A DNA stretch of 64,000 nucleotides from Bacteroidales bacterium (lineage in GTDB: Bacteria > Bacteroidota > Bacteroidia > Bacteroidales > GCA-2748055): NCBI GenBank assembly GCA_029938715.1, contig JAOZUK010000003.1, forward strand, positions 8,925 through 72,924, read 5' to 3'. Each line of letters starts with the position of its first letter. The first letter of the stretch is position 1. This document shows positions 1,834 through 1,929 of this stretch, one piece after another. The position numbers and the translations under genes are program-made. Below the pieces are notes generated by a model. The model did not search any database, was not told where the DNA came from, and saw only the letters and a list, made by a program, of their open reading frames with translations.

Positions 1834-1929
1834 ATGAAATCGTTAATTAAAGTAACCAAGAAGGGAGATGGCAAAGTGGCACAGTGCTGTGCCAAGAATT
1901 CAAAGGCCGTCATGGGATGTCATGATTAA
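1834..1929 (+). CDS. 31-aa Cys-rich peptide, candidate radical SAM substrate/RiPP precursor: MKSLIKVTKKGDGKVAQCCAKNSKAVMGCHD
   Basis: Manual translation of ATG..TAA at 1834-1929 (below the ORF-track length cutoff); stop is 2 nt before the ATG of the radical SAM gene; CC and GC motifs at the C-terminal end. Confidence 0.65.
   Translation: MKSLIKVTKKGDGKVAQCCAKNSKAVMGCHD

Follow-up and report, generated by a model that had tools for sequence, protein, structure and literature searches.

A 31-residue peptide with a constant cysteine core and its radical SAM/SPASM partner enzyme: a probable RiPP precursor family from a Bacteroidales bacterium

A 64,000-nucleotide (nt) stretch of contig JAOZUK010000003.1 from a Bacteroidales bacterium (assembly GCA_029938715.1, positions 8,925 to 72,924; the whole stretch is called the window below) contains a missed gene for a peptide of 31 residues upstream of a radical S-adenosylmethionine (SAM) enzyme of the SPASM type. 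This gene very probably encodes the precursor of an undescribed ribosomally synthesized and post-translationally modified peptide (RiPP) with a constant core, because it belongs to a conserved family that almost always adjoins its own radical SAM enzyme. An earlier note on this DNA had considered a RiPP leader and core as one possible layout. This assignment is supported by a near-obligate partner enzyme that resembles CteB, a conserved N-terminal motif, a linker of variable length, a near-invariant Cys core and a hairpin in the gap between the two genes. The features that carry the argument are the following.

Positions 1834–1929, plus strand: gene of the 31-residue precursor-like peptide (open reading frame, homologues, coding signature).
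Positions 1834–1878, plus strand: leader MKSLIKVTKKGDGKV (position counts in 105 distinct peptides).
Positions 1879–1926, plus strand: core AQCCAKNSKAVMGCHD, with the near-invariant pattern A-Q-C-C-A-K-x-S-x4-G-C-H-D directly before the stop codon.
Positions 1989–3302, plus strand: predicted radical SAM/SPASM peptide maturase (mechanical reading frame from 1932, conserved start Met at 1989).

Translation from the ATG at 1834 to the TAA at 1929 yields MKSLIKVTKKGDGKVAQCCAKNSKAVMGCHD (31 residues), which is exactly the unannotated open reading frame (ORF) that had been proposed. A search with these residues in 100 related genomes gave relatives with 84% to 55% identity and the same start and stop; each of these genomes except one (G063) also had the radical SAM enzyme. 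The check for frame loss, stops and frameshifts that had been suggested beforehand revealed no internal stops in any strong relative. A set of 105 distinct peptides was then gathered by means of a regular expression fixing the letters CC[AS]K and GCH[DN] and leaving A, Q, S and the leader residues free; enzyme-upstream regions and profile matches, for which no fixed pattern was used, gave the same peptides. The Lys-rich, leader-like N-terminus noticed at the outset is a conserved motif M-[KR]-S-L-[IV]-K-K, followed by a Lys-rich linker of variable length. The three-Cys segment at the C-terminus proved to be near-invariant in the relatives: the family-wide pattern is A-Q-C-C-[AS]-K-x-S-x4-G-C-H-[DN]-stop, and CCSK and GCHN are rare variants. 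In the last 16 codons, the mean nucleotide entropy at codon positions 1, 2 and 3 is 0.36, 0.41 and 1.43 bits, and the choice of Cys codons drifts among relatives. Third positions thus vary while the amino acids are fixed, which is a coding signature and indicates that selection acts on the protein. As judged from these sequence comparisons, the 31-residue ORF is confirmed as real and far from chance; a chance ORF is ruled out by the conserved frame, the leader motif and the Cys core. Searches of the peptide against NCBIfam, Pfam and the PDB gave no match, and the family was probably missed by curated libraries because its members are only about 31 residues long.

With a profile built from 11 peptides (E < 1e-8), the family was detected in 50 of 395 genomes from this order, and a sample of 399 genomes from the phylum added five more. 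Loci with the peptide upstream of the enzyme were found in Bacteroidota, Ignavibacteria, Spirochaetota including Leptospiraceae, Hydrogenedentota, Clostridia, and in Myxococcota and other delta lineages (Deltaproteobacteria); the loci from named organisms across phyla come mostly from metagenome-assembled genomes.

The partnership of peptide and enzyme is close to obligate. The enzyme family occurs in 48 of the 395 genomes, and all 48 contain the peptide; conversely, 49 of the 50 peptide genomes contain the enzyme if an enzyme fragment at a contig end in one genome (G308) is counted. Among 58 family loci tested across several phyla, 56 have the peptide in the upstream position, and the two exceptions are a truncated peptide copy at a contig start (L152) and a partial locus (L172). 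Distant relatives of the enzyme at four loci (L184, L186, L188 and L191), which share 24–28% identity and are not accompanied by the peptide, were treated as other families. The conserved gene order is methyltransferase, peptide, radical SAM enzyme and a thioredoxin-thioredoxin reductase (Trx-TrxR) fusion. Genes for DUF6132, thioredoxin, DUF1847, DUF302 and Crp or ArsR regulators are optional members. Methyltransferase, enzyme and reductase diverge in a correlated manner when compared pairwise (Mantel r 0.71 to 0.80), as would be expected of a cassette inherited as a unit. At two loci, an additional methyltransferase of the Methyltransf_11 type separates the maturase from the Trx-TrxR gene (L092:9586-10200 and L116:4504-5130). 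Several features by which the broad radical SAM/SPASM RiPP class is recognized are present: a short precursor-like gene adjoins the putative modifying enzyme throughout the relatives, and a conserved N-terminal motif, a variable linker and a near-invariant core follow each other as leader and core.

The radical SAM cysteines 111, 115 and 118 (CxxxCxxC) and the SPASM cysteines C350, C368, C407, C410, C416, C420 and C436 are invariant in 13 diverse members of the enzyme family. A first AlphaFold model based on eight sequences was poor (predicted local distance difference test, pLDDT, of 59.9); a model based on 43 sequences, which has a mean pLDDT of 92.5, was used instead. In the PDB, this model is matched best, and along almost its entire length, by structures of CteB (E 8e-18), a RiPP maturase that forms thioethers; the anaerobic sulfatase maturase and SuiB come next. 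A sequence search of the PDB likewise places CteB first. The N-terminus of the model forms a module of three strands and a helix. Enzyme relatives, where named, are called just "radical SAM protein". A close relative, 72% identical to the enzyme, is encoded by the culturable Carboxylicivirga caseinilyticus. In NCBIfam, the enzyme scores far below every maturase cut-off; its best matches, over nearly the whole length, are CefB (NF038107; 151.7 bits, cut-off 600) and TIGR04463 (137.1, cut-off 525), and the peptide lacks the array with a Cys at every fifth position that belongs to these two systems.

The closest likeness is to CteB/SCIFF and other ranthipeptides, in which a short Cys-containing peptide gene also adjoins a radical SAM/SPASM enzyme. 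However, the SCIFF peptide contains six Cys in forty-five residues instead of three in 31, the enzyme stays below the maturase cut-offs of SCIFF (TIGR03974; 92.5 versus 425 bits) and PapB (NF047865; 119.7 versus 340 bits), and the ArsM-like and Trx-TrxR partners set the cassette apart from these systems. The SbtM thio(seleno)oxazole RiPP system is similar in outline, since there, too, anaerobes use a radical SAM enzyme that acts on Cys within a small peptide. No description of the cassette was found in the literature searched, which included only a minority of subscription papers; within this reach, the peptide and the maturase family are both undescribed.

The gap between the two genes contains a further element.

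Positions 1932–1973, plus strand: predicted RNA hairpin with the arms GGAACCCGG and CCGGGTTCC at 1937–1945 and 1960–1968 (folding).

The earlier note had taken the spacing of the genes as a hint of translational coupling. The 2-nt gap to an ATG at 1932 is, however, probably a false boundary: in nearly all enzyme homologues, the first residue corresponds to the Met at 1989, so that the enzyme probably starts there, beyond the hairpin. A hairpin between the peptide stop and this start argues against coupling, which is therefore not supported. The folded stretch in the window has an energy of -26.4 kcal/mol and a z-score of -3.8. For 71 loci with a gap of 25–160 nt, the mean z-score is -3.1, and 46 loci are below -2. 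In fixed segments of 70 nt, z < -2 was obtained for 24 of 52 peptide-enzyme gaps, compared to 5/52 segments after the methyltransferase, 3/50 after the enzyme, 5/43 after the reductase and 3/52 inside the enzyme gene. The enrichment is therefore limited to the gap between peptide and enzyme, where the position of the hairpin is kept and its sequence differs. A scan for sigma-70 promoters and intrinsic terminators gave counts as in shuffled sequences, and the window hairpin lacks the required T-run. The likely effect of the hairpin would be a higher level of peptide than of enzyme transcript, allowing an excess of peptide over enzyme.

A regulatory leader peptide, i.e. a cysteine- or metal-responsive attenuator of the downstream enzyme genes, could have the same layout of a small ORF with Cys codons, a hairpin and an enzyme gene. 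In an attenuator, however, one would expect the codons and the RNA pairing to be preserved and not a motif of the protein. Here the whole core is conserved as protein with a fixed C-terminus, the Cys codons drift, a variable linker stands between the conserved leader and the conserved core, and the hairpin sequences differ freely among loci. A regulatory leader peptide is therefore very improbable, and a Cys attenuator was rejected because of the protein-level conservation of the core, the drifting Cys codons and the free hairpin sequences.

The remaining genes of the cassette bear on the function of the putative product.

Positions 1160–1807, plus strand: ArsM-like SAM methyltransferase with conserved cysteines in LSCG, SNC and ECWAGA; adjoins the peptide in nearly all loci.
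Positions 3331–4602, plus strand: Trx-TrxR fusion with CPPC and CATC motifs; family in 47 clustered loci.
Positions 863–1144, plus strand: small DUF6132 membrane protein with conserved cysteines, first gene of the cassette; family in 24 clustered loci.
Positions 76–735, minus strand: divergent Crp/Fnr-type regulator, possibly of the cassette; homologues near 16 loci.

Arsenic methyltransferases in the PDB can be aligned with the methyltransferase of the cassette, whose invariant Cys coincide with Cys72, Cys174 and Cys224 of CmArsM, residues that take part there in the binding of As(III). The methyltransferase is homologous to ArsM, but the protein is shorter and scores below the NCBIfam cut-off for ArsM (PRK11873; 190.3 versus 263 bits). 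In cassettes of ArsM and ArsS for arsenosugars, a radical SAM gene is likewise found nearby; such a cassette was rejected, since the radical SAM protein is here predicted to be a peptide maturase of the SPASM type, and the methyltransferase remains far below the AsSugarArsM cut-off (73.5 versus 400). ArsR-type regulators with Cys-rich C-termini were found in three loci. They stand at the head of the cassette (L034:11748-12035; at L076 and L082, they precede the methyltransferase), and their C-terminus of approximately NCxxxCNC suggests metal(loid) sensing. ACR3 is present in 43 of the 50 peptide genomes versus 164 of the 345 others (odds ratio 6.8, p 2e-7). Some loci adjoin sulfur-trafficking genes instead.

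A mechanism in accordance with CteB can be proposed. The N-terminal domain of the enzyme would grip the leader M-K-S-L-[IV]-K-K, and SAM radical chemistry would then build at least one bond from the core Cys in AQCCAKxSx4GCHD. Such bonds would most likely be thioethers, as with CteB, and it is plausible that thioethers are formed, albeit with slightly less than an even chance. An intracellular role is the most likely one for the product: from phylum to phylum the core is nearly the same, and neither an exporter nor a peptidase recurs among the first 25 of 67 neighbour families. Similar reasoning was applied to mycofactocin before its function was known (PMC3023750). In the cell, the peptide would most likely have a fixed function, either in thiol/redox chemistry or in binding thiophilic metals or metalloids; the Trx-TrxR fusion would keep it reduced, and the ArsM-like methyltransferase would act alongside. 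Thiol or metalloid chemistry is our best guess, held with modest confidence, because of the ArsM-like Cys, the ArsR regulators, the correlation with ACR3 and the sulfur-trafficking neighbours at some loci. A metalloid role in particular is possible but rather doubtful. It is unlikely, though conceivable, that the RiPP represents a new intracellular class with an all but fixed Cys core and is a dedicated thiol cofactor for the handling of arsenic-like metalloids, in which the modified peptide holds a metalloid, the ArsM-like enzyme methylates it and the Trx-TrxR fusion recycles the thiols. The alternative suggestion of the earlier note, a tiny metal-binding peptide, may apply to the product in its final form, in view of the ArsM-like partner and of additional CC or CxC pairs in some members. 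Such extra pairs occur in the linker at L037:8999-9106 (e.g. MKSVVKKSCCNNN...), L155, L156, L157, L160, L162, L163 and L179, as if the number of thiols mattered.

Within the RiPP explanation, the constant C-terminus could instead be cut out to give a redox cofactor for dedicated oxidoreductases, for which Trx-TrxR would be a candidate partner. In mycofactocin (MftA/MftC) and PQQ (PqqA/PqqE) biosynthesis, a tiny peptide with a near-invariant C-terminus, a SPASM-type enzyme, a sparse distribution among phyla and the lack of an exporter are combined as they are here (PMC3023750), and the same pattern of constant C-terminus, sparse spread and missing exporter led to the proposal of mycofactocin before its function was known (PMC3023750). 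However, the neighbour families named above contain no recurrent peptidase either. Moreover, the only aromatic residue of the core is His, whereas PQQ and mycofactocin use Tyr; the mycofactocin precursor ends with CGVY, the peptide with GCHD. The enzyme reaches 67.7 bits with the mycofactocin maturase model, whose cut-off is 265. A redox cofactor of this kind is therefore unlikely. A secreted or antimicrobial product is far less likely still. Radical SAM RiPPs are frequently bacteriocins, but here the core shows no diversification, and the first 25 of the 67 neighbour families include no recurrent transporters, immunity proteins or peptidases.

An unmodified peptide could serve as a small metallothionein-like protein or as a carrier of metalloid or sulfur, the enzyme modifying something else. 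Three Cys plus His and Asp in the peptide and the additional CC or CxC pairs that several members have ahead of their core would suit this role, as would peptide copies without the enzyme. These were found in two genomes. In G063, an intact peptide gene (L040:8900-13700) lies amid Hdr-like, TusA-like and DsrE-like genes and a different methyltransferase. In G336, a second copy exists besides the full cassette (L094); it is preceded by a YgaP-like membrane protein and followed by a DUF302 gene (L093:8012-8591). The presence of the peptide in all 48 enzyme genomes, the likeness of the enzyme to CteB, and the near-invariant A, Q, K, S, G, H and D together with the leader motif, which exceed the needs of chelation, render an unmodified carrier improbable.

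Several points nevertheless weigh against a modified intracellular peptide. In G063 the enzyme remained undetected even at 1e-10, and this peptide could have an unmodified role or be a recent orphan; together with the second copy in G336, it implies that the peptide may serve without the enzyme. The modification of the peptide is a prediction, and the N-terminal module of the enzyme, in a confident model that matches CteB over almost its full length, is a putative RiPP recognition element by its fold. About half of the loci have no significant gap hairpin, and the window hairpin is devoid of a T-run. With respect to function, the enrichment of ACR3 may result from habitat, relatedness or genome content, an ars operon was not seen as a regular neighbour in the neighbour tallies, and a rare exporter or peptidase could have been missed beyond the first 25 of the 67 families.

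So constant a core suggests that the peptide handles metals or resembles a cofactor, and is less in keeping with an antibiotic. The family thus gives access, in a way that can be tested, to a new intracellular RiPP and possibly to a new connection of radical SAM chemistry with the metabolism of metalloids or thiols. A precise sequence pattern is now available for annotating the peptide family.

Two further observations concern the surroundings of the cassette in the window. A perfect inverted repeat, ATTTGACAGGA/TCCTGTCAAAT at 734–759, is located just upstream of the divergent Crp gene; a regulator may bind there, or the repeat may act as a terminator. Positions 4658–9627 encode a protein of the dihydrodipicolinate synthase/N-acetylneuraminate lyase family, a BNR sialidase-like protein, a DNA alkylation repair protein and a GH20 hexosaminidase; by its gene content, this run looks like a cluster for the use of sialoglycans that is unrelated to the cassette.
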